DNA from: Daejeonella sp.
GTDB taxonomy: Bacteria; Bacteroidota; Bacteroidia; Sphingobacteriales; Sphingobacteriaceae
DNA length: 48,126 bases
Direction: 5' to 3'
NCBI RefSeq assembly: GCF_030695525.1
Contig: NZ_JAUYSS010000045.1
Location: forward strand, 1-48,126
Part shown: in pieces, positions 430 through 22,600 of the stretch
How positions within the stretch are numbered: position 1 is the first letter of the stretch
Layout of the letters: each line of letters opens with the position of its first letter
Made by a program: the position numbers and the translations under genes
Notes under the pieces: generated by a model
Told to the model about the DNA's origin: nothing
Database searches by the model: none
What the model saw: the letters and a program-made list of their open reading frames with translations, nothing else

Positions 430-517
430 TGAATCTCCCCGCACCAAATTCTATAAACATTTCAAAAAATTATATAAAATATATCAAAATATTATCCCAA
501 TCTTTGTATGTAATAAC

Positions 518-913: not shown

Positions 914-1050
914 TTTTTATTTCCTCCTCGTCTGATTTCCATTCGGACTGATTTCGCATGCTTTTTATTCTGATGGACTCATCGGAATATTATTCATTCA
1001 ATAAACTATTTCATCCAGTAATTTAAATTTTAACAATAAATATTATCGTT

Positions 1051-1314
1051 ATGAAAAAATTAATTTATTCAATCGCAATTTTGGGTTTATTATTTAGTTC
1101 AGCCTGTAACAGTACAGAAAAACCTGCAGAAGCAGCAACTGATTCAATAGCAACTCAAACTGCTGGAGAAGGATATACCTGTCCAATGCACCCTGAAATT
1201 AAGAGTGATAAGCCGGGGACCTGTTCCATCTGCAAAATGGATCTGGTTAAAGATTCGGATCTCGAATCGGGTAGCATGATGACTGATAGTAGCAGTCACG
1301 ATCATAAGCACTAA
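1051..1314 (+). CDS. heavy-metal-binding-domain (HMBD) lipoprotein
   Basis: An 87-residue lipoprotein with a signal peptide ending in a lipobox-like SSAC (Cys19). It contains one HMBD module at about residues 42-66, seen as YTCPMHP followed by GTCSICKMDLV. The tail is His-rich (SSHDHKH). The same module heads both RND adaptors downstream, so this is probably a free periplasmic or membrane-anchored scavenger that hands Cu or Ag ions to the pump. It ends five bases before the cusA start, consistent with one transcript. The hand-over role is inferred from the module and the position. Confidence 0.88.
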   Translation: MKKLIYSIAILGLLFSSACNSTEKPAEAATDSIATQTAGEGYTCPMHPEIKSDKPGTCSICKMDLVKDSDLESGSMMTDSSSHDHKH

Positions 1315-1319
1315 TCGCA

Positions 1320-2624
1320 ATGGTTGAAAAGATCATAGCCTTTTCATTGAGGAACCGGTTCATTGTCCTGCTTTTTGCAGTAGGATTTTTTGGATGGGGA
1401 GTCTATTCGGTCAAAACGAGTAAGATTGATGCCATTCCTGATCTTTCTGAAAATCAGGTCATTGTGTTCACCGAATGGATGGGTCGCAGTCCTCAGATCA
1501 TTGAAGATCAGATCACTTATCCTCTGGTTACCAATCTTCAGGGATTGCCCAAGGTAAACTATGTGCGCGCAAATTCCATGTTCGGAATGAGTTTTATCTA
1601 TATCATTTTTGAAGATGATGTAGATGTCTACTGGGCACGTTCCCGGGTATTGGAGCGTCTCAATTCAATCGGGAATGTTTTGCCCGAAGGTGTTAGTCCG
1701 ACTCTTGGACCCGATGGCACCGGGGTCGGCCATGTATTATGGTACACTCTGGATGCCCCTGGAATGGATCTCGGAGAGCAAAGGGCAGTTCAGGATTGGT
1801 ACATCAAATTTGCACTTCAGAATGTAGCTGGGGTGAGTGAGATCGCTTCATTTGGAGGTTTCCAGAAGCAGTATCAAATCAGTATTGATCCGAATCGCCT
1901 GAGCTATTATAAACTGAGCATCCAGGATGTGATGCAGGCGGTTAAGAGTAATAATAATGAGGCCGGAGGAAGGAAGTTTGAGATGAGTGGGATCGGATAT
2001 ATCATTAAAACCAGTGGGTACCTTAAATCGATTGAGGAGATCGAAAACCTGGCCTTACGAACTCAAAATTCTATTCCTGTGAAGATCAGGGATATTGGCA
2101 CGGTTCAGATGGCCGGAGAAAGTCGCCTCGGCATATTCGATTATAATGGTGAGGGTGAAGTGGTAGGAGGGATTGTGGTATTGCGATATGGCGAGAATGC
2201 CGATGAGGTGATCCGCCAGGTGAAAACAAAAATGACGGAAGTAGCCAGGGGTTTACCCCAGGGGATGAAGTTTAATATTGTTTATGACCGTGGTGAATTG
2301 ATCGCAGAATCAATATCTTCTATCAAAACTACCCTCATTGAAGAGATGATTGTGGTATCACTGATCGTGATCGTTTTCCTGTTTCACTGGAGAAGCGCGA
2401 TAAGTATCATCATCCAGATCCCAATAACCATAGCTGCCAGCTTTATATTATTGAATGCATTTGATATTTCATCCAACATCATGTCATTAACCGGTATCGC
2501 ACTGGCTATTGGTGTTATTGTCGATAATGGAATCATCATGGCAGAGAACTCTTATAAAAATCTTGCAGTAAGGCAGGCTGAATTAAATGAACAAAGAACA
2601 GGAGGAAATGCAGATGTGGAATAA
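1320..2624 (+). CDS. cusA: CusA/CzcA-type heavy-metal RND efflux pump, N-terminal part (frameshifted)
   Basis: This 434-residue frame holds the start of a CusA-like proton-driven pump. It has the first membrane helix, the porter segment with IPDLSENQVIVFTEW and YWARSRVLERLNS, and helices 2-4 ending at GIALAIGVIVDNGIIMAENS, which carries the conserved aspartate of helix 4. It then drifts into a non-conserved tail and stops at 2622-2624. The rest of the pump continues in the +1 frame from about 2587. A full pump has roughly 1040-1070 residues, so this frame alone cannot make a working one. The break is either a real mutation or a sequence error; both halves look otherwise intact. Confidence 0.9.
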   Translation: MVEKIIAFSLRNRFIVLLFAVGFFGWGVYSVKTSKIDAIPDLSENQVIVFTEWMGRSPQIIEDQITYPLVTNLQGLPKVNYVRANSMFGMSFIYIIFEDDVDVYWARSRVLERLNSIGNVLPEGVSPTLGPDGTGVGHVLWYTLDAPGMDLGEQRAVQDWYIKFALQNVAGVSEIASFGGFQKQYQISIDPNRLSYYKLSIQDVMQAVKSNNNEAGGRKFEMSGIGYIIKTSGYLKSIEEIENLALRTQNSIPVKIRDIGTVQMAGESRLGIFDYNGEGEVVGGIVVLRYGENADEVIRQVKTKMTEVARGLPQGMKFNIVYDRGELIAESISSIKTTLIEEMIVVSLIVIVFLFHWRSAISIIIQIPITIAASFILLNAFDISSNIMSLTGIALAIGVIVDNGIIMAENSYKNLAVRQAELNEQRTGGNADVE

Positions 2625-4548
2625 ATCGAAACTTAAAAAGAATGATGATTATGTTAAACTTTCTACTGAAGAAAGACTGAGCATCATCGAAAAGGCCTGT
2701 AAACAGGTGTCAAGAGGTGTATTTTATTCAACCATTATTATTATCACATCTTTTCTGCCGGTATTTTTACTGACAGGGCAGGAAGGTAAATTATTCCATC
2801 CGCTGGCCTATACCAAAACCTTTATTCTTATCATCGATGCGGTACTGGTACTTACACTGGCTCCCGTAATCATTTCATTTTTCATGAAGGGTCGTTTCCG
2901 TCAGGAGAATGAGAACCCGATCAACAGAGGATTAGAGAAGGTTTACCTTCCGATGATTCGTGCCTGCATCAGAAACAGAAAAACTACTATTGGAGTTAAT
3001 ATCCTTGCATTGCTTATCTCTATACCGATGATGATGAGTCTGGGGCGCGAATTCATGCCACCTTTGGATGAGCAATCTGTTTTGTTTATGCCTGTGACCT
3101 TACCTGATGTTTCCAATTCGGAGATCAAGCGAATTTTACAGGTTCAGGATAAGATTATCAAGTCTGTGCCGGAGGTCAACCATGTATTGGGCAAGGCAGG
3201 CCGTGCAAGTTCAGCAACTGATAATTCACCAATCAGCATGATTGAAACAATCATTTCGCTGAAACCAAAAAGCGAGTGGAGGCCCGGAATCAGTAAAAAG
3301 GATATCATTAATGAGCTTGATGCCAAACTTCAGATTCCGGGTGTTGTGAATGGCTGGACACAGCCCATCATCAACCGAATCAATATGCTTTCAACCGGCA
3401 TTCGTACTGATGTTGGGGTCAAGGTTTATGGGCAGGATCTGAGACAGATCAGCCATATTTCTGAAGATGTGCATACCCTGCTGAAAAATATTGAAGGAGT
3501 GAAAGATCTGTATGTTGAGCCGGTTACTGGGGGTAAATACCTGGAAATTGAAATCAGACGCGATCAGTTGGATCGTTACGGGCTAACAGTGGATGATATC
3601 AATGCCACTGTTGAATCAGCGATTGGGGGCGCTCCTTTTGCTTCTACGGTAGAAGGCCGGCAACGTTTTAACATTCATTTGCGCCTAGGTCAGGAATACC
3701 GGAACAGTATAGACCGCTTGAAACGAATTCCACTAACTTCCCCTGATGCGGGAACGATCCCATTATCAGCGGTTACAACTATCCGGTTTGTGGATGGCCC
3801 GCCGATGATCAGTTCTGAAAATGCAATCCTGCGGGGTGCAGTGATGTTCAATGTTCGTGATCGCGATCTGGGGCATACTGTTCAGGAGGCTATTGATAAG
3901 TTGAATAAGGATTTGAAACTCCCAAATGGATATTTTGTAGAATGGAGCGGGCAATACGAAAATCTGATCCGGGGACAGCAAACCCTGATCTATATTCTGC
4001 CTGTAGTAATCTTTATTATCTTTCTGGCCCTGTATCTGGCTTTTAAATCAATCAGAGAGGCATTTTTAAGTCTCGTGACTATTCCTTTCGCCCTTATCGG
4101 GGGTGCTTTCCTGGTTTATTTCTGGGGTGTGAATCTTTCAGTTGCCGTAGCGGTTGGATTTATTGCCCTTTTCGGGATCGCCGTCGAAACTGGTGTGGTG
4201 ATGGTAATCTATTTGAATGATGCAATGAGACAGCTGGTTGCTTTGAAAGGCAATTCCAGTGAAACAATTACCAAAGAAGATTTAAGGGAATACGTGATCA
4301 ATGGTGCTGCCAAACGTTTACGACCCAAGATCATGACGGTTTGTGTCGCATTATTTGGTTTGACACCTGTTTTATGGTCGGGTGGGGTGGGAAGCGATGT
4401 GATGCAGCCTATTGTGCTGCCAATGATTGGAGGGGTACTCACTTCATCCACCCATATTTTATTGGTTACACCATTGATCTTTCTGATGACAAAAGAGTAT
4501 GAATTGCGAAAATTTGGAAAACTGGAGGTACATGATGTTCAGCATTAA
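2587..4548 (+). CDS. cusA: CusA/CzcA-type heavy-metal RND efflux pump, C-terminal part (frameshifted)
   Basis: This frame supplies the rest of the pump: a cytoplasmic loop, helices 5-6 (from SRGVFYSTIIIITSFLPVF), the second porter domain and helices 7-12. NMLSTGIRTDVGVKVYG and GPPMISSEN match the Met-containing segments seen in Cu/Ag-specific CusA, which argues against a purely Zn/Co/Cd pump. The ATG at 2587 has no clear ribosome site and only follows the in-frame stop at 2584-2586, so it is probably not a natural start. The shift from frame 1320 must fall between 2587 and 2621. Joined, the two parts give about 1075 residues, the normal size. Confidence 0.9.
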   Translation: MNKEQEEMQMWNKSKLKKNDDYVKLSTEERLSIIEKACKQVSRGVFYSTIIIITSFLPVFLLTGQEGKLFHPLAYTKTFILIIDAVLVLTLAPVIISFFMKGRFRQENENPINRGLEKVYLPMIRACIRNRKTTIGVNILALLISIPMMMSLGREFMPPLDEQSVLFMPVTLPDVSNSEIKRILQVQDKIIKSVPEVNHVLGKAGRASSATDNSPISMIETIISLKPKSEWRPGISKKDIINELDAKLQIPGVVNGWTQPIINRINMLSTGIRTDVGVKVYGQDLRQISHISEDVHTLLKNIEGVKDLYVEPVTGGKYLEIEIRRDQLDRYGLTVDDINATVESAIGGAPFASTVEGRQRFNIHLRLGQEYRNSIDRLKRIPLTSPDAGTIPLSAVTTIRFVDGPPMISSENAILRGAVMFNVRDRDLGHTVQEAIDKLNKDLKLPNGYFVEWSGQYENLIRGQQTLIYILPVVIFIIFLALYLAFKSIREAFLSLVTIPFALIGGAFLVYFWGVNLSVAVAVGFIALFGIAVETGVVMVIYLNDAMRQLVALKGNSSETITKEDLREYVINGAAKRLRPKIMTVCVALFGLTPVLWSGGVGSDVMQPIVLPMIGGVLTSSTHILLVTPLIFLMTKEYELRKFGKLEVHDVQH

Positions 4549-5782
4549 GAAAATAGTTTTGTTGTTTGCTTTCCTGACTTCATACACGGTCTACGGACAG
4601 CAGATTATGAATCTGGAGGAAATATTAGCGGAGATTAGTGCCAATAATCCTTCTCTGAAGTCCTATGCAAGCCGGATTCAAAGCAAGGATTCTAAAGTGG
4701 AAGGCGCCGGCTCATGGATGGCTCCAATGGTTGGGGCAGGAACTTTTATGAGTCCTTACCCCGCACAGGGTAAGGTTGGCGATGATGAACGTGGGGCATT
4801 CATGATCACTGCTGAACAGGATATTCCCAATCCCGCAAAGGTCAGGGCAAAAAAGGAATACCTCAAAACGCAGTCACTTACCTATGAATTGGGTAGAAAT
4901 GAACGTTTTAACCAGTTAAGAGCCAGTGCAAAGTATCTCTATTTCGGACTTTTGGTAGCTCAAAAGCGTATTGTCTTCCAGAAGGAGAATCAGCAGATCA
5001 TGCAGACGATGAAAAAGCTTGCAGAGATACGTTATCCCTTTAATCAGGGGGGATTAAATCAGGTTTTTAAAGCTGAGGGAAGGGTCTATGAATCTGAGAA
5101 TATGATTCTGATGACAGAGGCAGAGATTCGTTCAAAAAAGATTGCTTTGAATGCATTGATGAACAGAGCAGCGAATGCCGAGTTTGAAATTGAAACCGGG
5201 TATCAGGTTAAGTTCAGTCCTAAAGCAGATCTCGACACTGCTTATCTGGCTGGAACAAGGAGCGATATTTTGCATATGGAACATGATATACATGCGATGG
5301 AAAGGAATATTGATCTGATGCGGCAGGAGTCAAAGCCCGATTTTAAAATTCGGTTTGATCATATGTCAAATTATTCTGCAATGATGCCAAGGCAGTTTAC
5401 GGTGATGGGAATGCTTTCCATTCCGATTGCTCCCTGGTCCTCCAAAATGTATAAATCAGAGATCAAATCCATGAATTTTGAGCGGGAAGCCATGCGGCAG
5501 GAGAAAGCGGCTATGCTTACAGAAATTTTAGGGATGAGTAAGTCTATGGAAAACGATCTGGTTAATATGCAGCAGCAGTTATTTAATTATGAGACCAAGA
5601 TTTTGCCTTCATTGGAAAAGTATCTCAAGGTTTCGATGTTATCCTATCAGGAAAATAAAACCGATTTAAATACGGTGATAGATGGGTGGGAATCGATCAA
5701 TATGTCGCAGATGAATTATCTGGATCAGTTACAGAAATATTATCAAATGATTGTGGAGTATGAGAAGAATATTGAACGTTAA
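4535..5782 (+). CDS. TolC-family outer membrane factor (CusC-like)
   Basis: An outer membrane channel for the tripartite metal pump. I chose ATG 4535 because GGAGG at 4524-4528 sits six bases upstream and a signal peptide follows directly (MFSIKKIVLLFAFLTSYTVYG, cut near GQQ). ATG 4532 is possible; the more upstream ATG at 4499 would put extra residues before the signal and overlap the cusA end further. The mature part has two long helical repeats typical of OEP proteins, with MNLEEILAEISANNPSLKSY opening the first. It is unusually rich in Met in the middle (YSAMMPRQFTVMGML), which fits Cu/Ag passage. It overlaps the 3' end of cusA by 14 bases. Confidence 0.88.
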   Translation: MFSIKKIVLLFAFLTSYTVYGQQIMNLEEILAEISANNPSLKSYASRIQSKDSKVEGAGSWMAPMVGAGTFMSPYPAQGKVGDDERGAFMITAEQDIPNPAKVRAKKEYLKTQSLTYELGRNERFNQLRASAKYLYFGLLVAQKRIVFQKENQQIMQTMKKLAEIRYPFNQGGLNQVFKAEGRVYESENMILMTEAEIRSKKIALNALMNRAANAEFEIETGYQVKFSPKADLDTAYLAGTRSDILHMEHDIHAMERNIDLMRQESKPDFKIRFDHMSNYSAMMPRQFTVMGMLSIPIAPWSSKMYKSEIKSMNFEREAMRQEKAAMLTEILGMSKSMENDLVNMQQQLFNYETKILPSLEKYLKVSMLSYQENKTDLNTVIDGWESINMSQMNYLDQLQKYYQMIVEYEKNIER

Positions 5783-7085
5783 AATCGCATATTTTCTGAT
5801 TATCGGATCATTCCTTTTAAGCTGTAATCAAGATAAAAAGCTTAGTTCTGGCAGTCAGGTGCAGAAATACACTTGCCCAATGCATCCGCAGATAGTGAAA
5901 GATGGCCCGGGTACTTGCCCTATCTGTAAAATGGATCTGGTTCCTCTGCATACTGCTGATTCACATGGTGCTGCGGATACAAGTTTAAATTCCTTAGTGA
6001 AACCAAGTAATGAGTTGGTTATATCCGGAATCAAAACAATCAGGGTAGAGAAGGGGCTTAAAAAATCTGAAATCGTCCTGAAAGGGATCATAAACTATAA
6101 TACGAATAACTGGCGGTCGGTATCGGCAAGGGTGAGTGGCCGTATTGAAAAGCTATATGTGAAATATAATTATGAGCGGGTTAGCAAAGGACAAAAGATT
6201 ATGGAGATTTATAGCCCTGATCTGGCAAATGCCCAGCAGGAATTGCTCTTTCTGAAAAACAATAATGAACCTGCACTTCTTGAATCTGCCAAAAGGAAAT
6301 TGTTACTTCTTGGTTTAAGTCTGACCCAGATAAACAGGGTCCTAAGCACAGGCAGGTTAGAAGATAGAATCGCTGTTTACAGTCCATATTCAGGTTATGT
6401 TGCTGAATTGGGTTTAAACACCCCAACTTCTTCAGGTATGGTAAACCAGGCTGGTGGAACAAGAATCAGCTCAGGAAGCGCAGGCGGAATGAGTTCTATG
6501 AATGCTACTGCATCATCCGCTACTCTGCCGGAAATACCGGATATTCCTGCAGGTGGATCTTTGCAAATCAGGGAAGGACAATATATCAATGCCGGTCAGA
6601 AGTTATTCGATCTGATCAATACAGATCAGGTCTGGGCCGAGTTCTTTGCCCGACCGGATCAATTGCAGGAGTTTAAACCGGGTAAAAGAGTACTTGTTCA
6701 GTCCATAGATCTTGCGGATCAGCGTTCAGAAGTTGCTGTGAGCCTGATTCAGCCTTATTTTAGTAACGGAATCAATTATTCCCTGATCAGAGCCAATATG
6801 CCAAACAGTACTAAAAGCTGGAAGGTGGGTCAGTTGATCTCAGTAAGCAGGGACGCCGCAATAGAAGGGAACTGGCTGCCCGCTACAGCCCTTGTTCAGG
6901 TTGGAACACAATATGTGGTATTTATCAAAAAGGATAAAGGATTTATACCGGTTTTTGTGAAGCTGAAGCATCGGGCGGACCAATGGATTGATATAGGGGA
7001 AAGTCTGGAACCTGACACAGAATTGGCAATTAATGCCTGGTTCCTCATAGATAGCGAAGGTTTTATAAAAGCAAAGCGTTTATAA
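5760..7085 (+). CDS. RND efflux periplasmic adaptor with N-terminal HMBD (CusB-like), first copy
   Basis: A membrane-fusion lipoprotein linking the RND pump to the TolC channel. From ATG 5760 there is a signal peptide with lipobox LLSC (Cys22), then an HMBD module at about 37-63 (YTCPMHP, GTCPICKMDLVP), then the barrel-sandwich hybrid, helical hairpin and beta-barrel domains. A Gly/Ser/Met-rich insert of about 45 residues (around GSAGGMSSMNATASSATLP) splits the second half of the lipoyl-like domain. TTG 5751 is an alternative start. The gene overlaps the TolC gene by 23 bases and shares TAATG with the next adaptor, so the genes are probably translationally coupled. Confidence 0.9.
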   Translation: MRRILNVKIAYFLIIGSFLLSCNQDKKLSSGSQVQKYTCPMHPQIVKDGPGTCPICKMDLVPLHTADSHGAADTSLNSLVKPSNELVISGIKTIRVEKGLKKSEIVLKGIINYNTNNWRSVSARVSGRIEKLYVKYNYERVSKGQKIMEIYSPDLANAQQELLFLKNNNEPALLESAKRKLLLLGLSLTQINRVLSTGRLEDRIAVYSPYSGYVAELGLNTPTSSGMVNQAGGTRISSGSAGGMSSMNATASSATLPEIPDIPAGGSLQIREGQYINAGQKLFDLINTDQVWAEFFARPDQLQEFKPGKRVLVQSIDLADQRSEVAVSLIQPYFSNGINYSLIRANMPNSTKSWKVGQLISVSRDAAIEGNWLPATALVQVGTQYVVFIKKDKGFIPVFVKLKHRADQWIDIGESLEPDTELAINAWFLIDSEGFIKAKRL

Positions 7086-8293
7086 TGAGAACAAAAATAA
7101 TTTTAGGGCTGATCATTCTTTATTCAGGATTCATTTTCTCCGGATGTAGTGAGGGGCATGAAAAGCATGCAGAAGCAGAAAAATATACCTGCCCGATGCA
7201 TCCTCAGATCGTTAAAAATGGCCCCGGTACTTGCCCGATCTGCAAGATGGATCTGGTTCCGGTAAATTCTGCGGGTGGTAAAAATGAGCTGTCACTTAGC
7301 GATAGCCAGATTCAGTTGGCTAATATTCATACCATGATGATCAATCGTACTGACTTCAGTACTTCAAAAGTATTAAATGGCCGTTTGATTGTAAATCCGG
7401 AACAGACTCAAGTAATTTCCAGTCGGTATGCCGGAAGGATTGAAAAATTGTTTGTGAAAGAAATGGGGCGGTCTGTTAAAAAAGGCCAGGCGATTTTTCA
7501 GATCTATAGTGAAGAACTCCAGACCCTGCAGCAGGATTATTTATTACAACTTAAGCAGGTCGCGGTATTTCCTGAAGAGAAGATCTATCAATCAATGCGG
7601 GAGGCTGCGAAAAATAAACTACGCTTGTTCGGCTATTCAGATGCTCAGATCCGGGTACTGACCGCTTCAGGAAAAGCAGCGCCATTGCTCACCGTCTATT
7701 CATCAGCGTCCGGAGTTGTGACTGAGCTGAATGTTTCGGAAGGACAGTATTTATCGGAAGGCAGTCAGATATTAAAGCTTGAAAATTTCAGTCAGCTCTG
7801 GCTTGAAATGGACGTGTATCCGAATGAAATGGGAATTATCAAACTGGGTACTAAGGTTCAGGCTTCGATCAATGGCATTAGCGAAAAAGAGCAGACGCTG
7901 ACTATCGATTTTATTTCCCCGCAGATGGATCCATCCTCCCAGGTACTAAAAGTAAGGGCTCCGATTAATAACCCGGGAAATTTACAGGCAGGGATGCAGG
8001 CAACTGTGTTTCTACCCCTGGCAGAAATATCAGATGCTATGAGTTTGCCATTGGATGCAGTGGTACGCGATGAGAAGGGCGCACATGTATGGATCAAAAC
8101 GGCAAAAAATACCTACTCTCCAAGGATGGTACTCACGGGTGAGGAAGATACGGATCGGATCATTATCCTTTCAGGGCTTGAAAATGTGAAAGAGGTGGTT
8201 GTAAGCGGGGCATATTTATTATCCAGTGAATTTATTTTGAAAAAGGGGACAGATCCAATGCTGGGTCATGATATGAGTAAGATGCAAGACTAA
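7085..8293 (+). CDS. RND efflux periplasmic adaptor with N-terminal HMBD (CusB-like), second copy
   Basis: A 402-residue adaptor of the same family as the gene before it but clearly divergent. Its signal peptide ends at lipobox FSGC (Cys21), followed by a His-containing linker and an HMBD module at about 34-59. The core follows the usual adaptor order, with RLIVNPEQTQVISSRYAGRI opening the lipoyl half and SLPLDAVVRDEKGAHVWI in the beta-barrel/membrane-proximal part. It lacks the Gly/Ser/Met insert of the first copy. Two adaptors for one pump could form a mixed hexamer or serve different loads; this is inference. The start overlaps the previous stop by one base. Confidence 0.9.
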   Translation: MRTKIILGLIILYSGFIFSGCSEGHEKHAEAEKYTCPMHPQIVKNGPGTCPICKMDLVPVNSAGGKNELSLSDSQIQLANIHTMMINRTDFSTSKVLNGRLIVNPEQTQVISSRYAGRIEKLFVKEMGRSVKKGQAIFQIYSEELQTLQQDYLLQLKQVAVFPEEKIYQSMREAAKNKLRLFGYSDAQIRVLTASGKAAPLLTVYSSASGVVTELNVSEGQYLSEGSQILKLENFSQLWLEMDVYPNEMGIIKLGTKVQASINGISEKEQTLTIDFISPQMDPSSQVLKVRAPINNPGNLQAGMQATVFLPLAEISDAMSLPLDAVVRDEKGAHVWIKTAKNTYSPRMVLTGEEDTDRIIILSGLENVKEVVVSGAYLLSSEFILKKGTDPMLGHDMSKMQD

Positions 8294-8331
8294 TTATTTG
8301 ATTATTAATAATTTATAATAAATTTATAGAT

Positions 8332-10374
8332 ATGGATCATCATCAGCACGGACATATACATCCCCATGGGGAGCATGGTAATAATCATGCAGGTTTGATG
8401 AATGAACATCCAAATTCTCATGTGGTTGATGAGCATGCAGGCCATCAAACTTCGGATTTTTTAAAAAGATTCTGGATAAGTCTCATTCTTACTATCCCCG
8501 TTCTTCTATTGTCAGAAATGATCCAGCATTGGTTTGGATTTCATATTGCATTCCCGGGTGACAAGTTTGTATTGTTAGGGCTTAGCTTAATCTTATTTAT
8601 TTATGGAGGCAAGCCCTTCCTGATAGGGATGCTACGTGAAATAAAGCAATCAAATCCAGGCATGATGACCTTGATTGGAGTTGCAATACTTGTTGCATTC
8701 GTTTACAGTACTTCCGTTATTTTTGGCTTGAAGGGTATGGATTTCTTTTGGGAGCTTGCTACCCTGATAGATATTATGTTGCTGGGACATTATTTTGAGA
8801 TGCGTTCCCAGCATGCCGCATCCCGGGCTCTTGAATCATTGGTTGCATTGCTTCCTTCAGATGTTCATGTAGAGCGCAAGGGAGTAGTTGTTGATCTACC
8901 ATTGAAAGAACTACGCAATCAAGATATTATTCTCATCAAACCCGGTGAAAAAATTCCTGCCGATGGGAAGATCATTAGTGGACATTCTTTTGTTAATGAA
9001 AGTATGCTTACCGGAGAAAGTTTGCCGGTCAGGAAGCAAAAAGAAGATCTGGTTATAGGTGGTTCGATCAACGGCGATGGATCTATAAAAGTACTCGTTA
9101 CCGGAACCGGTGAGCAAAGTTATCTTAATAAGGTAATTAATATGGTTCAGGGTGCTCAGGCTATCAAATCGAGAACACAAAATCTGGCTAATAAAGTTGC
9201 CAAATGGCTGACATATGTATCTCTGAGTATCGGTATAATTACATTTATCGTATGGTTTAGTAAGGATGGGGATATGGCCTTCGCATTGGAAAGGATGGTA
9301 ACCGTCATGGTTACATCATGTCCTCATGCCCTCGGGGTTGCAATTCCTTTGGTTGTTGCTATTTCAACGTCTCAGGCAGCGGTTAATGGCCTTTTGATTA
9401 GAAACAGAACAGCATTTGAAAATTCAAGGAATCTAAGTCTCGTAATTTTTGATAAAACAGGAACTTTAACAGAAGGCTCCCATGGTATTCAACGTATCAT
9501 TGTTATTGATAAAATCTATTCAGAAAATGATATTCTTCAATATGCTGCAGCCTTACAGCAAAATTCTGAGCATTATATCGCTCAAGGTGTAAAGAAATCA
9601 TTAGATCTTAAAAAGCTCGAACTATGGCCATCAACTGAATTTGAATATCTTCCGGGTATCGGTATTAAAGGAAAAGTGAAAGGAAAAGAAGTAATAGCCG
9701 TAGGTCCGAATTATTTCAGGAAGGAAAATATGCCGGTTCCTGAAATCCCTGAAGAAATTAACCAGTCTTCAGAAACTGTTAATTTTTTAAATATTGATGG
9801 AAAAACTGCCGGGATAATCACTCTTTCAGATACAATCCGACCATCATCCAAAGCCGCCATTGAAGAGCTTAAATCAATGGGGATCAAATCTTATCTTCTA
9901 ACCGGTGATAACGAACATGTGGCTAAATCAGTTTCCGATTCATTAGGAATGGACGGCTTTCTGGCAAATGTATTACCGGATCAGAAGCAGCAAAAGGTCT
10001 TAGAGTTTCAGCAGAAGGGTGAGATCGTGGCAATGACTGGTGATGGTGTGAATGACGCTCCTGCGCTTGCACAGGCCAATGTGGGTATTGCAGTTGGTTC
10101 AGGGACGGATGTTGCTGCTGAAACAGCAGATATTTTACTGGTTAACAGTGATCCCCGGGATATAGTAAAAATTATCAGGTTCGGCAGGGCAACTTATAAA
10201 AAGATGATTCAGAATCTATTTTGGGCAGTAGGTTATAACATAGTTGCAATTCCTTTGGCTGCTGGAGTTTTATATCCGGGTTTTTTGCTTAGCCCGGCAG
10301 CAGGGGCTGTTTTGATGAGTATTAGTACGATAATTGTGGCTATTAATGCTCAGTTATTAAAACGTAGTCTTTAA
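8332..10374 (+). CDS. copper/silver-exporting P1B-type ATPase with CPH motif (CopB-like)
   Basis: A 680-residue heavy-metal ATPase. The N-terminus has no HMA domain but 12 histidines in the first 38 residues. The membrane metal site is Cys330-Pro-His (SCPHALG), the mark of the P1B-3/CopB class, where CopA has CPC. The phosphorylated aspartate is Asp374 in DKTGT, the actuator TGES and hinge GDGVNDAPAL are intact, and about eight membrane helices are visible. CopB-class pumps export Cu(I), Cu(II) or Ag(I) from the cytoplasm; the exact ion cannot be read from sequence. It starts 38 bases after the second adaptor and is followed without a gap by the regulator gene. Confidence 0.9.
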   Translation: MDHHQHGHIHPHGEHGNNHAGLMNEHPNSHVVDEHAGHQTSDFLKRFWISLILTIPVLLLSEMIQHWFGFHIAFPGDKFVLLGLSLILFIYGGKPFLIGMLREIKQSNPGMMTLIGVAILVAFVYSTSVIFGLKGMDFFWELATLIDIMLLGHYFEMRSQHAASRALESLVALLPSDVHVERKGVVVDLPLKELRNQDIILIKPGEKIPADGKIISGHSFVNESMLTGESLPVRKQKEDLVIGGSINGDGSIKVLVTGTGEQSYLNKVINMVQGAQAIKSRTQNLANKVAKWLTYVSLSIGIITFIVWFSKDGDMAFALERMVTVMVTSCPHALGVAIPLVVAISTSQAAVNGLLIRNRTAFENSRNLSLVIFDKTGTLTEGSHGIQRIIVIDKIYSENDILQYAAALQQNSEHYIAQGVKKSLDLKKLELWPSTEFEYLPGIGIKGKVKGKEVIAVGPNYFRKENMPVPEIPEEINQSSETVNFLNIDGKTAGIITLSDTIRPSSKAAIEELKSMGIKSYLLTGDNEHVAKSVSDSLGMDGFLANVLPDQKQQKVLEFQQKGEIVAMTGDGVNDAPALAQANVGIAVGSGTDVAAETADILLVNSDPRDIVKIIRFGRATYKKMIQNLFWAVGYNIVAIPLAAGVLYPGFLLSPAAGAVLMSISTIIVAINAQLLKRSL

Positions 10375-10947
10375 ATGGAATTATATATCAAAAATATGGT
10401 ATGTAACAGGTGCATCACGGCAGTTCAAAATGTGCTGTTCAAACTTGAATTGCATCCCATAGATGTCCAGATGGGTATGGTAAGGCTTAAGGAGGATAAG
10501 TTGGATGAACAAAAGCTTCTTGAACTGAATAAACATTTAAATTCCCTTGGGTTTGAGTTGCTGGATAAAGGTAAGAGCAGGGTCATTGAACAGATCAAAA
10601 ATCTCATTATTGAAAAAATATTTCATTCAGAGTTTCTGGAGCAAAAAATAAACTGGTCGGGTCTTATTTCTGATAAGGTATTTCATGAATATAGTTATTT
10701 AAGCTCATTATTTTCTTCTGTCGAGGGTATTACCATTGAACAATACATTATTCGCCAGAAAATAGAGCGGGTTAAGGAACTCTTATTTTATGATGAATTG
10801 AACCTTGGTGAAATTGCCAACAAACTGGGATACAGCAGTATTGCTCATCTATCGGCCCAGTTCAAAAAGGTTACTGGCCAAACCCCTACCCAGTTTAAGA
10901 ATAACAGGGCCTCTGATGTGCAGAGGAGATCAATTGATAATGTTTAA
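10375..10947 (+). CDS. HMA-like/AraC-type HTH fusion, probable metal-responsive regulator
   Basis: A 190-residue protein in two parts. Residues 1-65 look like a heavy-metal-associated fold with metal motif MVCNRC (Cys10, Cys13) and the pattern MELYIKNMVCNRCITAVQ. Residues about 100-180 are an AraC-type double helix-turn-helix: IEQYIIRQKIERVKELL, LGEIANKLGYSSIAHLSAQF and the family signature FKKVTGQTPTQFK. Metal binding by the N-terminal part could switch DNA binding. The ATG directly follows the stop of the CPH ATPase, so the two are co-transcribed and it may regulate its own island. Small AraC proteins with an MxCxxC head are seen in other Bacteroidota; the ligand is inferred. Confidence 0.85.
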   Translation: MELYIKNMVCNRCITAVQNVLFKLELHPIDVQMGMVRLKEDKLDEQKLLELNKHLNSLGFELLDKGKSRVIEQIKNLIIEKIFHSEFLEQKINWSGLISDKVFHEYSYLSSLFSSVEGITIEQYIIRQKIERVKELLFYDELNLGEIANKLGYSSIAHLSAQFKKVTGQTPTQFKNNRASDVQRRSIDNV

Positions 10948-11015
10948 CTGATACAAACACAAAGTTGTATAACTCTTACCTGTAATTCTGTAAAGCCTTA
11001 AGCGCTTCTATATCA

Positions 11016-11023
11016 TAATTTTG
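11016..11023 (+). promoter_or_regulatory. Bacteroidota -7 promoter element for copA
   Basis: TAATTTTG matches the Bacteroidota -7 consensus TAnnTTTG exactly and lies 17 bases before the copA start. I see no clear -33 partner. A short dyad, AGTTgtatAACT at 10963-10974, lies about 40 bases upstream and could be an operator. Together they suggest that copA has its own start site within the 93-base gap after the regulator gene. Confidence 0.5.
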
Positions 11024-11040
11024 TATTGTAAATCAAGATT

Positions 11041-13305
11041 ATGAACGAAGAACCAAAATCTCAATCAAAGGAGACTTCCACAACGACTATCAGGGCTGTG
11101 TTCCCGGTAACTGGCATGACCTGCGCCGGATGTGCAATCAGTGTTGAGTCAATACTTAAATCTACGACAGGAGTTATTGATGCAGGGGTAAACTTTGCGA
11201 ATAATACTGCATGGGCAGAGTATGATTCTCTGAAAACAAATCCGCCGGCACTGCAAAAGAGTATTCAATCTATTGGATATGATATAATTATCGACACAGA
11301 GAATTCTGCAGAACTACAGGAGAGCTTTCAGCTTACAAATTACCTGGAACTAAAAAACCGGACAATATGGGCTTCAATACTTGCCTTCCCTGTATTTGTA
11401 ATTGGGATGTTTTTCATGGACATGCCTTATGGAACCTGGATATCTATGATACTGACTGCTCCCGTCCTGTTTTGGTTTGGCAGAAACTTCTTCATCAACG
11501 CCTGGAAGCAGGCAAGGCACGGGATGGTGAATATGGACACTTTAGTGGCTTTGAGCACCGGAATAGCTTTTGTTTTTAGCGCATTTAACACCTTCAACCC
11601 TGAATACTGGCACAGCAGGGGAATACATCCGCATGTTTATTATGAAGCTGCTGCTGTGATTATAGCCTTTATTTCCTTCGGAAAATTACTGGAAGAAAAG
11701 GCTAAGTCAAACACGACCACAGCCATTAAAAAATTAATGGGATTACAGCCTAAAACAGTTCGGATTCTTAACGATGATAAGGAAGAAGAGATTCCTGTTT
11801 CGCAGGTCGCTCCAGGTCAGATCATAGTCCTTAGACCGGGAGAAAGGGTTTCTGTTGATGGCACTGCCGTTTCAGGATCATCTTATTTGGACGAAAGCAT
11901 GATCAGTGGTGAACCTATCGCAGTTTTGAAGGAAGCGGGCGAAAAATTATTCGCAGGCACAATCAATCAGAAAGGTAGTATTCATTTTAGAGCCGAAAAG
12001 GTTGGTGCCGATACCCTGCTTGCACATATCGTAAAAATGGTGCAATTGGCGCAGGGAAGTAAAGCTCCGGTGCAAAAGCTAGTGGATAAGATAGCAGGAA
12101 TATTTGTTCCGGTTGTAATTGGTATTTCAATCCTGACATTTGCAGTCTGGATGTTAATTGGAGGGGAGCAAGCATTTTCTCATGCTTTACTTACTTCGGT
12201 AACTGTACTGGTCATTGCCTGTCCCTGTGCTTTGGGACTTGCAACTCCAACAGCAATCATGGTGGGAGTTGGTAAGGGTGCTGAAAATAATATTCTTATA
12301 AAGGATGCTGAAAGCCTTGAATTGGGATATAAAGTCAATGCGGTCATTCTTGATAAAACAGGTACTATCACAGAGGGCCGGCCTGTAGTTACCGCAATGA
12401 ACTGGTCACCTGAAATTAGTGATAAAGAGCAATATTTTAAGGTTCTTTACAGTCTGGAAATAAATTCTGAGCATCCACTGGCTGATGCGATAGTTAAGAA
12501 GTTAACAGAGGACGGAATTTCAGGTGTTCAACTAGAATCATTTGATAGTATCACAGCGCGGGGAGTAAAAGGTATTCATAATGGAATCGGGTTTTTCGTC
12601 GGGAATCATCAGTTTCTGGAAGAACAAAATATATCTTTAAATACAGATCAGTTTGAATATGTACAGAAAAGGCAACATGAAGCTAATACAGTAATTTACT
12701 TTGCAGATCAGAAAAAGGTATTGTCAATTATTTCTGTTGCCGATAAAATTAAGGATTCCTCGACTGAGGCTATCCGTCAACTGCATGATTTGGGTATTGA
12801 AGTTCATATGCTTACCGGAGATAATGAACAGACAGCTTCTGCTGTAGCAAAAGAAGTGGGAATTAAAAGTTACAGGGCTGAGGTTTTGCCATCTGATAAA
12901 GCCGATTTCATTAAGCAGCTACAGTCTGAGGGAAAGGTTGTTGCTATGGTGGGAGATGGGATCAACGATTCTCATGCCCTGGCACAGGCTGATGTTAGTA
13001 TTGCGATGGGAAAGGGTTCAGACATCGCCATGGATGTTGCCAAGATTACTCTAATCACCTCTAACCTGCAGTCTATTCCCATGGCATTGAAACTTTCAAA
13101 AAGGACCGTTCAAACTATTCGTCAAAACCTGTTCTGGGCCTTTATTTATAATATTATCGGGATTCCGCTTGCGGCAGGTGTTTTGTACAGCTACAATGGT
13201 TTTTTACTTGATCCAATGATCGCAGGGGCAGCAATGGCACTCAGTTCAGTTTCTGTAGTTAGTAACAGCCTCAGATTAAAAGCTTTAAAACTCAGGTCTA
13301 ATTAA
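11041..13305 (+). CDS. copA: copper-translocating P1B-1 ATPase CopA
   Basis: A 754-residue Cu(I)-exporting ATPase. One HMA domain lies near the N-terminus (GMTCAGC, Cys28 and Cys31). Eight membrane helices follow, with Cys394-Pro-Cys in IACPCALGLATP, the phosphorylated Asp438 in DKTGT, and the hinge GDGINDSHAL, where His replaces the more usual Pro or Gln. The C-terminal helices carry YN (FIYNIIGIP) and the MxxSS motif (AGAAMALSSVSVVSNSLRL), both Cu(I) ligands in CopA. It probably moves cytoplasmic Cu(I) to the periplasm, where the Cus-type system would take over. A CopZ-like gene follows 27 bases later. Confidence 0.95.
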   Translation: MNEEPKSQSKETSTTTIRAVFPVTGMTCAGCAISVESILKSTTGVIDAGVNFANNTAWAEYDSLKTNPPALQKSIQSIGYDIIIDTENSAELQESFQLTNYLELKNRTIWASILAFPVFVIGMFFMDMPYGTWISMILTAPVLFWFGRNFFINAWKQARHGMVNMDTLVALSTGIAFVFSAFNTFNPEYWHSRGIHPHVYYEAAAVIIAFISFGKLLEEKAKSNTTTAIKKLMGLQPKTVRILNDDKEEEIPVSQVAPGQIIVLRPGERVSVDGTAVSGSSYLDESMISGEPIAVLKEAGEKLFAGTINQKGSIHFRAEKVGADTLLAHIVKMVQLAQGSKAPVQKLVDKIAGIFVPVVIGISILTFAVWMLIGGEQAFSHALLTSVTVLVIACPCALGLATPTAIMVGVGKGAENNILIKDAESLELGYKVNAVILDKTGTITEGRPVVTAMNWSPEISDKEQYFKVLYSLEINSEHPLADAIVKKLTEDGISGVQLESFDSITARGVKGIHNGIGFFVGNHQFLEEQNISLNTDQFEYVQKRQHEANTVIYFADQKKVLSIISVADKIKDSSTEAIRQLHDLGIEVHMLTGDNEQTASAVAKEVGIKSYRAEVLPSDKADFIKQLQSEGKVVAMVGDGINDSHALAQADVSIAMGKGSDIAMDVAKITLITSNLQSIPMALKLSKRTVQTIRQNLFWAFIYNIIGIPLAAGVLYSYNGFLLDPMIAGAAMALSSVSVVSNSLRLKALKLRSN

Positions 13306-13332
13306 ATAAATAATATCAAAAAATCAGAAATA

Positions 13333-13539
13333 ATGGAAACAATTAAATTTAAAACGAATATCAAATGTACAGGATGTCTGGCTCAGGTTGGTCCGGCATT
13401 GAACGAGACTGCCGGTGAGAATAACTGGAAGGTGGATCTGGATTCAAGTGATAAAACACTAACTGTTGAGGGAGATCTTCATGAAGCTGAAATTATTGCT
13501 TCTGTGAAAAAGGCAGGATATACAGCCGAAAGGATTTGA
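13333..13539 (+). CDS. heavy-metal-associated domain protein, CopZ-like copper chaperone
   Basis: A 68-residue single HMA domain with the metal motif in TNIKCTGC (Cys12, Cys15) and the usual beta-alpha-beta-beta-alpha-beta layout ending SVKKAGYTAERI. The Met of the common MxCxxC motif is replaced by Ile-Lys (IKCTGC), as in many Bacteroidota copies. It is cytoplasmic, with no signal peptide. It follows copA and probably delivers Cu(I) to it. It is the last gene of the island and ends just before a strong terminator. Confidence 0.88.
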   Translation: METIKFKTNIKCTGCLAQVGPALNETAGENNWKVDLDSSDKTLTVEGDLHEAEIIASVKKAGYTAERI

Positions 13540-16698: not shown

Positions 16699-19600
16699 TT
16701 ATCGCTTCAGGATCAGGTAACCTTTATTTAGTGCTGAAACTCTCTGCCCCCTTAATGTCCGGTGTGTAGTGATCAGGTAGTAATAAACACCATCACTCAG
16801 CGGTGAGTTGATATTTGAAAGTAATCCGGTATTGGCGAACCCCGAAAATACCCGGTCACTTTCATTATATCCATTCATTCGAAAGACTTCATTCCCCCAG
16901 CGATTGAAGATCAAAACCTCGTTATCCGGGAAAGATACTATGTTCTCTACTCTAAAAAATTCGTTACCCAATCCATCATTATTAGGGGATACCAAAGGAT
17001 CGGGGATGATATCCGGGTTTAAAGGAGGGTCATTTTTTGTGGTTATTGGAATAGTAGGTGAGGGTGGATAGATATCATTAATGATCACCGTAGCACCGTT
17101 ACCAATTCTTACCAAAGGGTCGGATGTTGATAAGATACTAAGAATAACATCTTCATCACCTTCCTGTTCATCATCTGTTAAAGCAGCCAATGTAACCTTT
17201 TGAGTAGTAAAGGTTTTCCCGCGTGGGATTTTGATATCGAGATATTGATCGAGAAGTATATAATCAAGGTCATTCTTTGCCCTGCCCTGATAATTGATCC
17301 TGATAGTTACATCATCCCTGAATGGTCTCATAAGTCTGGCAGTAACAGCTGTTTTCTTGCCTTCCGAAACATGGCTTATTGCTGGTGCCAGACTAACAAT
17401 TGTAAAAGGGATAACTTCAATAATTAATGAGGCAGTGGCACACATTCCCGAAGTATTGCACACCCGGTAGGTTATGATTTCCAGTCCCCAGAATCCAACA
17501 TTGGGGGTATAGTTGAATTTTCCATCAGGACTAAAAGTAATTGTCCCATTTTTTGCAGCTGATGTAAGTGAAAAACTAATATTTTCTCCCTGACGGTCAT
17601 AATCATTCAGTGCAACACTGCCAGAAACAGGTATTTCTTCATCGGTTTTGAAACTATCATCTATCGCGATCGGAGGACAACTTCCGCGCAGCACTTCAGC
17701 TGAAACCATCAGGGTGCATCCTCTGGCATCTTTTATAAAAAGCTCATAGATTCCGGGTGCAAGATTATCCAAGATATCATTTTTAATGGGGCTACCTTTC
17801 CAGGTCAGATCATATGGTTTTGTACCGCCAGTGATTGTCGCTGAAATCATCCCATCAATTGAAGTTTTACAAACCGTGTTTTTTACAGTGAGTGCTGCCT
17901 TAAGGATTTCAGGTTCAGATATCGGAATACTAATTGTTTCAGAACATCCGCTCGCATCAATCACCGAAAGAGAATAATTGATATTTGGTGCTAGGTTCTG
18001 CAGATTTTTTGTACTTTCATTATTAGACCATTTATAAGTATATGGTGAGGTTCCTCCTGAAACACTTACGTCTATACTGCCATCCCTTGCTCCAAAGCAG
18101 CTTGCATCAATCTTAGTAAAATTAATCTTGAGAGGTGCGGCAGGTTGCCTGATGGGTATAGATTCAGTGTATTCACATCCTTTTGAGTCTGTAATTGTGA
18201 TGGAGTAAGAACCTGCAATGAGCCCATTTAAGTCTTTTGTGATCTGTCCACCTTGCCAGCGATAGATGTATGGAGCGGTTCCTCCGCTTGCTGTAACTTT
18301 AAGTGACCCGTTGTTTCCTGCAAAACATGAAACATCAGTCCGGATGAAGCTTAAGCCCAGAGGTGCTGCAGGCTGTGAAATAGTATAGTCAGGAGATATT
18401 ACAGTAATACATTCCGGACTTCCGGCATCCCTTACATATAATTGGTAGCTTCCTGCTAAAAGGCCGTTAAATATTTTACCGCTTTGCCAGCTGATTCCTC
18501 GATTTATACTGTATTCATAGGTTCCGAAGCCCCCTGAAACAGTTTCAATCTGAATAGATCCTGTGTTCGAACCATAGCAGTTGACATTAATAATTGATGC
18601 ACTGGCTTTTATGGCTGCCAGAGGCTGAATAATTATAGCACCTCCACTACCTGAATTCGAACATGAATTTGCATCACTTACTGAGGTAATTCTATAAGTT
18701 CTGGTGGTATCAGAACTGACGTTGAATGTATAATTACTACTTCCAATTCCACTAATTGTGTTTGAGTTAAATCCATCAGTGTAGCTTATTGTCCAGGGAG
18801 CTTTTCCCGTCAGTTTGACACTCAATGTACTAATCGCACCAAAACAGGCCATTTTTCCTCCACTAAGTGTTGCCGTGGGAAGCGGGTTTACAATAATGGT
18901 GTATTTACTTTCAGGCCCGGTACAACCATTATTACCTGGAATAATCGTATAGGTTACAAACTCTGGTGTTGAGCTGCTGTTGGTAAGAAATTGAACAGGG
19001 ATAATATTTGTGCCGCTCGTGGCGTATCCTGAAACTGAAGCCGGGGCGCTCGCCGTCCAGGTGAAAGTAGTTCCGGGAATATTGGAAGTAAGTTCGACCA
19101 CTTTTGAACTGGATTGGGTACATAACATTTGGGTCAAAGATGAATTGCTAAGCTTAGGAAGTGGCTTTATGGTAATAATATAACTTGAAGAAGGTGCGGC
19201 GCAACCGTTTAATGTTGGAAATACAGTAATCAATGCCTGAATTGCTGAACTGGTGTTATTAATAGCCGTAAATGAAGGAACATTCCCATTTCCGCTGGCT
19301 GCTAGTCCGATTGATGGATTTGAATTAGTCCATTTATAAGTTACACCTGCAATATTTGCTCCAAATGAAGTAGCAGAAACCAGTGTTCCGGAACATATGG
19401 TAAAGCTTAATGGTACAGTTACAATGGGTTCAGGGTTGATAGTTATCGTATAGGTATTGGGTAGCCCAATACATCCGTTTAAACTTAGAATCACAGTGAT
19501 TGTAGCAGTGATAGGTTCTGTGGTATTATTTACAGCAGTAAAAGCGGGTACATTGCCACTTCCGCTGGCGGCTAATCCGATTGCTGGATTTGAATTTGTC

Positions 19601-22600
19601 CAGCTTATTGTGGCACCGGGTGGAGTACTGTTAAAAATACTTTGCGGCACCGTAAGCCCTTTACAATAAATTTGATTCTCTGGTACTACTAATAGGGGCA
19701 GTTGGTTTATTTTCAGTTCAAAGATTTTTGATACGCTGACACAGGAGTTAAGGGTAGCCGTTACAGCATAAGTTCCTGACATGGAAAGGTTTGAATTTGA
19801 ACGGGTTACAGATTGACCGGTTTCGGTAAAACCCATTGGCCCAGTCCATGTATAGGTGAAAAGAGGATCAGGATTGAGAATGGAAAGAATTAATGGTTCG
19901 CCCTGGCAAACCGGACTCACATAGGGATTTATATCCGGTTGAGGGGGAGCCCCCGGACTTGATACCGACAATGTGGGTCCTATAAATAGACATCCATTGG
20001 CATTTTTTACCACAACAGAATAACTTCCTGCTCTTACACCTGTGAAATTACCTCCGTTTTGTACAAAGGTAATTCCTCCATTAATAGAGTATTCAAGGGG
20101 TTGTGTCCCAACTGCTGTAATTGTGATTATTCCGTTACTTAGATTACAAGCTGTTTCATTTGTGGCTAAAGCTGCTGTAATTACCGGCAAGGGCTGAACT
20201 ATGATTGTGTAACTTATTGTGTTGCCCACACATCCATTCATTGATGGTATTATGGTAATTGTAGCTGAAATAGTAGTGCCGGATGAATTTGTTGCGATGA
20301 AACTCGGAATATTTCCTGTTCCACTCGCCGGAAGTCCAATAGCGGTATTTGAATTGGTCCAGCTATAACTTGTTCCAGGTATATTGCTTATTAAATTTCC
20401 TGCCGAAATAGTTTCTCCTGCACACACAACAGAATTTCCGGGACCGGTAACTAATGGTAATGGATTAACTGTAATTGTATACGTATATGTCTGACCGGGA
20501 CACCCGTTCAGACTTGGAGTTACACTAATACTTGCTGTGATGGCAGTATTTGTATTATTGGCTGCTGTAAATGAAGCAATATTCCCGGTTCCGCTAGCTG
20601 GAAGACCGATTGCGGGATTTGAATTTGTCCAGCTAATGGTGGCTCCCGGTGGAGTACTGTTAAAAATATGCTCAGGAACAACATTGCCTTTGCAATAATT
20701 TTGATTCATGGGAGCAATTAATGTTGGCTTCGGGTCAACCTGAATATTAAAGGTCTTAGAAGCGCTGACACACGAGTTAACAGTAGCAGTTACAGCATAG
20801 GTTCCGGACATGGAAGGATCTGAATTTGAGCGGATTATTGATGCACCGCTTGCAGTAAATCCCGATGGACCAGTCCAGGTGTAGGTTGCCATTGGGTTTG
20901 GGTTCATAATGGAGAGAATTAAAGGTTCTCCCTCGCAGACAGGACTTACATAGGCATTAATCTCAGGTTGTGGAGGTGCGCTGGGACTGGTTACAGATAG
21001 GACTGGCCCTGTAATGATGCAGCCGCTTGAATTGCGGACGACTATTGAGTAGCTTCCTGCTGCCAGGTTTGTGAAGTTCCCATTATTCTGAACAAATGTG
21101 TTTCCGCCATTGATCGAGTATTCTAAGGGCTGAAGACCACTGGCCGTTATTGTAATTGTTCCATCATCGATATTACATTGTGATTCGGGGGTTGCTATTG
21201 CCGATAAAATCACCGGTAGGGGATTAACCGTTATGGTAAAGATTATCGGCTGACCAGGGCAACCATTTGAAATAGGAATTACTGTAATTGTAGCTGAAAT
21301 AGCTGATATGGTAGAGTTTATTGCTGCAAAGCTTGGGATATTTCCGTTCCCAATGGCTGCAAGTCCGATATCTGGGTTTGAATTTGTCCAACTATATGTT
21401 GTACCTGAAACATTACTGGAAAAATTACTTGCAGCTATCGTTACTCCCGCACAAACTATCAAATCTGCCGGTTGAGCCATTACAGGCAATGGATTGACTG
21501 TAATGGTAAAGCTTGAAACGGGTCCGGTACAGACATTGTTTGTAGGTGTAACAGTAATGGTGGAAGTAATAGGAGATTGGGTGTTGTTTATTGCGGTAAA
21601 AGCTGAAATGTTCCCAATCCCGCTTCCCGCGAGTCCGATAGCGGTATTTGAATTGGTCCATGTATAAGTACTGCCAGCCGGGATGCTGCTAAATATCGAA
21701 GCCGGGATAGTGGTTCCCGAACATGCAATGATATTGGCAGGAACAGTAATGACGGGTAATGGTCTCACTGTTATCGAATAAACCGAACTTGGGCCGGCAC
21801 ACCCATTTAGAATAGGAGTCACAGTGATGTTTGCTGTAATAATTTCTGAGCTGGCATTGGTAGCTATGAATGCCGGCACAGTTCCACTTCCACTGGCAGA
21901 CAGACCAATTGAAGTGTTTGAATTTGTCCAGTTAAAAGTAGTTCCCGGCAGACCGCTGCTGAAACTGGAGGCGGGAGTACTTGTTCCTGAACATACTATA
22001 GAATTGGCCGGTACATTAACATTGGGCAAAGGGTTGACTGTGATTGTAAAACTTGAGGATGTTCCGGCACAACCATCAAAATAAGGAGTTACAGTAATGG
22101 TTGAAGAAATGGGGGAATTGCTGTTATTAACTGCGGAGAATGCAGGTAAATTGCCATTTCCGTTTGATGCCAGGCCAATAGAGGAATTCGAGTTTGTCCA
22201 GCTATAGGTAGCTCCTGAAATATTATTGCTGAAGTTACTAATTGGTACAGAAACTCCACTACAAACCGCGAAATCTGCAGGCAAGATTACAGCAGGCCTG
22301 GGATTAACAGTAATTGTAAAAGATGCCGCAGGACCGGGGCAGTTGTTTAAAGTTGGTATTACGGTTATTGTTGCTGTTATTGGTGCATTTGTATTATTAG
22401 TAGCCGTAAATGATGGTATGTTGTTCATCCCGGATGAAACCAGACCTATCGCCGTATTCGAGTTAGTCCAGGTATATGTTGCCCCGGCCGGAGTACTTAA
22501 AAAAACACCTTCGGGAATTGTGGATCCTTCACAGAAAGTCAAATTTGGGGGAACGGTAACGGTTGGTAGAGGGGAAACTGCTACTTCAAAAACTTGCGCG

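Follow-up and report, generated by a model that had tools for sequence, protein, structure and literature searches.

A candidate one-component copper sensor of Bacteroidota with an HMA-like head and an AraC-type tail, and its predicted operator

Which protein senses copper for the copper-export island of a Daejeonella strain, and how might it act on the promoters of that island? The question was raised by a stretch of 48,126 nucleotides (contig NZ_JAUYSS010000045.1, positions 1 to 48,126, referred to as the window), in which an open reading frame (ORF) at 10375-10947 of the + strand encodes a protein of 190 amino acids. A preliminary description, made from the sequence alone, had presented this 190-residue protein as an MVCNRC-containing head on an AraC tail, with its start codon placed directly behind the stop codon of a CPH ATPase gene. 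The ORF was found exactly as described: it begins with ATG, and the ATPase ORF upstream stops at 10374, leaving no gap between the two genes. The combination of ORF analysis, Pfam searches, alignment, profile comparison and an AlphaFold2 model delimited an HMA-like head (residues 1-64, 10375-10566, +), within it the MVCNRC motif (residues 8-13, 10396-10413, +) with a metal site predicted at Cys10 and Cys13 from positions conserved in 66 sequences, and an AraC-type DNA-binding domain (residues 66-180, 10570-10914, +). The regulator is probably a cytosolic one-component sensor of copper (probably also of silver) and an activator of transcription; we infer both the signal and the mode of action from the comparisons presented below. 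Altogether, these comparisons suggest that the HMA-AraC family may be a widespread copper sensor of Bacteroidota.

The tail of the window protein matched HTH_18 (1.1e-16) and HTH_AraC (4.5e-12), both above the Pfam cut-offs. The origin of the head was traced with a profile built from the window protein and 65 relatives. Positions 3-61 of this profile matched copper HMA domains of known structure, namely those of ATP7B (7.4e-11), a CopA-type ATPase (3.4e-7) and CopZ (7e-4). The Pfam HMA profile was matched at E<=1 by 27 of the 66 aligned sequences, with 1.6e-4 as the best value. The AlphaFold2 model of the regulator (mean pLDDT, the predicted local distance difference test score, 90.1) arranged the head as strand-helix-strand-strand-helix with a short final strand at residues 61-62; in the model, MVCNRC follows strand 1 and precedes helix 1. 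By remote profile similarity combined with a CxxC motif after strand 1, the head can be placed in the HMA superfamily, and its predicted status as a remote HMA homologue is well supported by comparison. The residues M8, V9, C10, R12, C13 and G34 were invariant across the 66 sequences, which ruled out a chance origin of the CxxC motif. In a set of 119 members, C13 was retained in all 119 and C10 in 115, the remaining four having Ser, and in the widest set of 185 different members 163 heads contained CxxC and 22 lacked it. The latter mostly read MVSxRC, four of them FD[IF]NTxC. No CsoR domain (PF02583) was found in the regulator, and CueR (TIGR02044) was not among the 25 best of its 26 NCBIfam matches.

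Genes surrounding the regulators of this family point to copper. The first family scan kept 80 loci out of at least 560 confirmed relatives; seven of the 80 held a protein already counted, and the neighbours were analyzed at the other 73. At 61 of them the regulator was followed by a same-strand gene no more than 400 bp away, and these 61 genes matched HMA (33), P1B-type ATPases (17, E1-E2_ATPase), MauE (11) and AraC-type proteins (6). At 29 loci encoding other AraC proteins, used as the control, such a gene was found in 15 cases, none of which matched HMA, E1-E2_ATPase or MauE. The metal-binding motif could be read in 70 ATPases of the family loci, being CPC in 67 and CPH in three, and these motifs point to Cu(I)/Ag(I). 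An ordinary AraC regulator that responds to an unrelated ligand and hitchhikes in the island is a most improbable explanation: other members of the family do precede non-metal genes, but the association with copper pumps held across the examined loci, and the family operator described next was predicted at both island promoters.

Word counts in the flanks of the family members revealed TTCTGTAA-like words 3' of the gene and only weak words upstream of the regulator. Iterative matrix building led to a predicted operator of 40 bp with two direct half-sites, AATnnTRTAA, located 21 bp apart. Words like ATGACCTGC were rejected as an operator because they match the codons for GMTCxxC in CopA. A clean matrix, seeded with two sites belonging to other families and trained on 26 distinct sites, with the window and its genus excluded, was used to scan both strands of the window; 30 first-order shuffles of one strand served as the control. 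The top two matches, with 27.8 bits each, were located at 443-482 and 10959-10998, the third one scored 5.8 bits, and the shuffles reached at most 15.0 bits. An earlier matrix, the training sites of which had been chosen with a matrix that included the window sites, gave 28.7 and 28.2 bits, respectively, and 5.5 bits for the next match. Predicted operator 1 (443-482, +, half-sites 447-456 and 468-477) precedes the cus operon and fits the consensus exactly; predicted operator 2 (10959-10998, +, half-sites 10963-10972 and 10984-10993) precedes copA and has one mismatch to the consensus. The regions 430-517 and 10948-11040, which had been singled out earlier for DNA-shift assays, are exactly the two that contain the predicted operator.

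The family as a whole was examined in a held-out test, five-fold by clusters, in which a site of at least 14 bits within 1.5 kb was sought. Such a site was detected for 71 of the 110 held-out members, in 57 of the 80 clusters, and 70 of the 71 were on the regulator strand. None of 29 other AraC loci from related genomes had one (maximum 12.5 bits; Fisher p 2e-11 versus the family), and together with the shuffles these loci ruled out a chance operator. When AGT was allowed for AAT, 35 half-site pairs on the regulator strand were spaced by 21 bp and none by any other distance between 11 and 60 bp. All three family members of the window genome have an operator site.

Sixty of the 62 distinct sites were situated downstream of the regulator gene; hence, the regulator usually controls the next gene and not itself. 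The 62 sites were then aligned on the operator alone, the -7 box not having been part of the training. Behind the aligned operators the Bacteroidota -7 box appeared, its four TTTG positions being occupied at one offset in 59, 60, 52 and 51 of the 62 sites (consensus TAnnTTTG in the available portions of PMC6847099, PMC9723704 and PMC7366714). The operator-to-box spacing was 21-23 bp per site, and some sites lacked a box fitting the simple pattern. No conserved -33 TTTG was found between the operator and the box in the 62 aligned sites. In the window, the predicted -7 boxes are AATCTTTG at 499-506 (+), with one mismatch to the consensus and within one base of the family offset, and TAATTTTG at 11016-11023 (+), proposed from its sequence and spacing. 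PMC6847099 assigns -5 to the final G of the box; on this scale, the inner half-sites extend from about -44 to -34, to the edge of the -33 position. Such placement makes activation the likelier mode. AraC-type activators contact RNA polymerase at this position, and the regulator is most likely an activator, judging from the operator placement. The preliminary description had left the regulatory mode open; the operator-to-box geometry now favours activation. Comparison gives good support to both the predicted operator and the promoter geometry.

A metal-dependent repressor, whose apo form would block the promoters until released by Cu(I), seems unlikely. The cytosolic copper sensors CsoR and CopY do work by derepression, and the operator is close to the promoter, but a nearly constant spacing of about 22 bp separates the end of the site from the -7 box behind it and leaves the box and the start site free. 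The missing -33 TTTG also speaks against repression, and AraC-family proteins bound at such sites are usually activators.

For the activator, the following mechanism may be proposed. In the HMA head, Cys10 and Cys13 would bind Cu(I), perhaps handed over by a chaperone such as the small HMA protein encoded at 13333-13539. A distance of 21 bp corresponds to about two helical turns and would place two molecules on the same face of the DNA. The gap between the inner half-site and the -7 box is about 22 bp, which puts the -33 position at the half-site edge. The metal-loaded regulator would then recruit RNA polymerase. It would activate the cus-copB operon (518-10947), including its own gene at the end, thus producing positive feedback, as well as copA and the gene of the small HMA protein (11041-13539). 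The cus-copB gene run has gaps of no more than 137 bp and ends in the regulator gene, so the regulator should feed back on itself. The idea of a one-component copper or silver sensor that joins a CopZ-like head to an AraC tail, put forward in the preliminary description, gains support from the CxxC-containing HMA homology, the copper-pump neighbours and the predicted operator.

Metal genes were defined as those matching a custom HMA profile or similar to the window copper proteins and located within 1.5 kb, and they were found near 115 of the 163 CxxC members versus 0 of the 22 members without CxxC. Behind the sites of CxxC members (n=90), the first genes encoded P1B ATPases in 43 cases, other HMA proteins in 20, HYC_CC_PP proteins in two, the regulator or a paralog in 15 and other proteins in 10. 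Among the 22 CxxC-less members, six had a hybrid histidine kinase gene directly behind them, most of the kinases with PAS domains, and four a gene of a single-domain receiver protein, two of which were below the Pfam cut-off. In several of these kinase- or receiver-linked paralogs (L245, L288, L246, L218, L216, L226, L267, L268, L243 and L270; MVSxRC or FD[IF]NTxC) the operator was present, often upstream of their own gene. The remaining CxxC-less members preceded CsbD-like, desaturase, MlaE, ice-binding or other genes, or had no close gene. Operators of at least 14 bits accompanied 11 of the 22. The tie between CxxC and metal neighbours is suggestive.

These data also bear on the nature of the input. 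The head might be an HMA domain gated by protein-protein contact or in another way. Instead of binding Cu(I) itself, it would detect CopZ or the HMA domains of ATPases in their loaded state, or a different metal or thiol signal such as Zn, Hg or oxidants. HMA domains dock together, 10 CxxC-less paralogs directly precede a hybrid histidine kinase or receiver gene, so the head can probably take other inputs, and at L090 (5989-9355) a family member adjoins, by inspection, ArsR-, MerT- and MerA-like genes. We nevertheless regard such gating as improbable for the window protein, since all 66 aligned members retain C10, C13, M8 and R12, no CxxC-less member has metal neighbours, and the ATPases in the neighbourhood are of the copper type.

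CopZ dimers share Cu(I) through pairs of CxxC motifs. A more speculative extension of the copper-sensor reading, put forward only tentatively, is that Cu(I) serves as a chemical dimeriser. Only the sharing of Cu(I) between the CxxC pairs of two HMA heads would join the DNA-binding tails rigidly enough for them to hold the 21-bp repeat, and CxxC-less heads would have been rewired to neighbouring hybrid histidine kinases or receivers with the operator grammar kept. If so, a single DNA code would serve metal-gated and kinase-gated branches of one family, and regulons would have widened in this way, one genus having as many as 20 exact sites in a single genome.

The operator was also searched for by its exact consensus in whole genomes. 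Among related genomes it occurred in 25 of 38 with the family versus five of 22 without it, and 22 of the 49 exact sites had a listed family gene no more than 10 kb away. In a phylum sample, at least one exact site was present in 47 of the 96 genomes that contain the family versus eight of the 102 that lack it (p 5e-11); the former contained 174 sites versus 17 for the reversed pattern, the latter eight versus five. In the window genome, an operator (L120, C5:40108) precedes the gene of a Met/His-rich DUF305 lipoprotein, the gene starting 128 bp farther on. The DUF305 family includes the copper protein CopM. A site nearly identical to that at L120 was seen in the relative G019. Another operator site of the window genome precedes a gene of a DUF2383 protein. 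Eight genomes of the genus g44 (G078, G082, G123, G138, G194, G206, G222 and G226) have 7-20 exact operators each, with 0-2 per genome for the reversed-pattern control, and the ninth sampled genome, G112, has four exact sites; a large regulon is possible in this genus.

Several observations weigh against the copper-sensor reading. The window protein itself had no Pfam HMA (PF00403) match. The held-out test left 39 of the 110 members without a 14-bit site, and it was not fully blind, given a simple clustering and a starting consensus drawn from all the data. No metal gene was detected nearby, by the definition given above, for 48 of the 163 CxxC members. In the window genome itself, the C47 paralog has CxxC and the operator motif, yet it faces a gene of a large exported protein and no metal gene. 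CxxC-less paralogs share nearly the same operator, so the site alone is no proof of a copper response. The tree requires four changes of the CxxC state, with gains and losses not distinguishable; branches with good support force three of the four. With about four changes underlying it, the link between CxxC and metal neighbours is suggestive and no independent proof, and an independent-pairs test of it had no power and could not reach significance. A single genus contributed 115 of the 174 exact sites. Finally, 35 kinases of the window genome matched CusS/CopS-type models below the cut-off, none above it, so another copper sensor is possible.

The other sensors had been taken as absent in the preliminary description, which named CueR, CsoR, CopY and CusRS. 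Indeed, the search of the window genome for alternative sensors revealed no CsoR (PF02583), no CueR above the TIGR02044 cut-off and, as stated, no CusS/CopS-type kinase above the cut-off. Two proteins of the BlaI/MecI/CopY family are encoded on other contigs.

The HMA-AraC type of regulator had also been considered little studied. The family is phylum-wide and no oddity of one island, being present in 96 of 198 genomes sampled from Bacteroidota (E<=1e-35). The nearest named relatives, among the matches listed, include Daejeonella, and 14 of the 15 best plasmid matches lay under annotated features named as AraC, helix-turn-helix or response regulator proteins. The window genome encodes three members, the one described here, C55 and C47; the C55 member precedes a second CopA-like ATPase gene. 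At five loci (L046, L047, L049, L050 and L070) the family genes form a tandem pair; in four of these loci a CPC ATPase gene comes next, and at L070 the gene of an RND pump lies at a greater distance. In a branch formed by L250 (C47 of the window genome), L235, L232 and L237, the operator precedes genes of large exported proteins, the one at L237 with Ig-like, InlB-type and ice-binding domains.

The regulator combines features of several known systems. Like AraC/XylS proteins (AraC, MarA/SoxS, YesN-type), it has a C-terminal domain with two helix-turn-helix motifs and a predicted direct-repeat operator beside the promoter, the 21-bp spacing being that of araI1-I2, but its N-terminal head is HMA-like, whereas the known heads of that family are cupin or receiver domains. 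With CopZ/Atx1 and the HMA domains of copper ATPases it shares the profile match over positions 3-61, the predicted order of strands and helices and MxCxxC after strand 1; unlike them, it is fused to a DNA-binding domain, its motif reads MVCxRC with an Arg invariant in 66 members, and it escapes the Pfam HMA profile. CueR, of the MerR family, is a cytosolic protein that activates copA in response to Cu(I), the role proposed here for the HMA-AraC regulator, but its fold and operator are unrelated. The repressors CsoR and CopY also control copper export genes, but they are unrelated proteins, and the operator predicted here is placed as that of an activator.

In the open-licence PubMed Central literature, judged by titles and the beginnings of abstracts and with subscription papers not covered, no recognisable description of an HMA-AraC copper sensor was found among the papers listed. 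A study of Bizionia argentinensis named MerR-, CopY- and ArsR-type candidates, the first two reported to lack the known copper sites, and 'AraC' does not occur in the portion of its text available to us (PMC11213822). Cytosolic copper sensing in Bacteroidota thus appears unsettled, and the predicted operator of the HMA-AraC family is new here. The family, the operator and the promoter geometry would together offer a phylum-wide and directly testable answer, allow regulons to be predicted from the DNA sequence and possibly provide a copper biosensor part for Bacteroidota.

The genes of the island, all on the + strand, are as follows. The predicted operon begins with a small Cys-rich protein of the HYC_CC_PP family (518-913; NCBIfam NF047658, 46.7 bits, cut-off 28), followed by a small protein with the heavy-metal-binding domain HMBD, a lipoprotein by inspection (1051-1314; PF19335, 2.5e-14). 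A CusA/CzcA-type RND pump is encoded in two parts, a separate ORF at 1320-2624 (TIGR00914 positions 1-431, 2.9e-136) and an overlapping one at 2587-4548 (positions 430-1036, 2.7e-185), both below the whole-protein cut-off. Next come an efflux protein of the outer membrane, taken as CusC-like from its position (4499-5782; Pfam OEP 4.4e-20), two CusB-type membrane fusion proteins with HMBD (5751-7085, HlyD_D23 1.6e-40 and HMBD 1.8e-13; 7085-8293, HlyD_D23 1.9e-52 and HMBD 1e-12) and the CopB-like P1B ATPase (8332-10374; TIGR01511 572.9 bits, cut-off 397), whose CPH motif was read from the sequence. Behind the regulator lie a CopA-type P1B ATPase with CPC and an N-terminal HMA domain (11041-13305; TIGR01511 599 bits, Pfam HMA 2e-12) and the small HMA protein, a possible copper chaperone (13333-13539; Pfam HMA 1.8e-6). 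The split of CusA after about 435 residues recurs in L040, L041, L060, L061 and L092, and the CusA-type pump is a single ORF in L064, L065, L066 and L091; either a frameshift or a genuine two-gene form may account for the split. Farther on in the window, the - strand carries an ORF of 2611 residues (16699-24534), the repeats of which are Ig-like by inspection.
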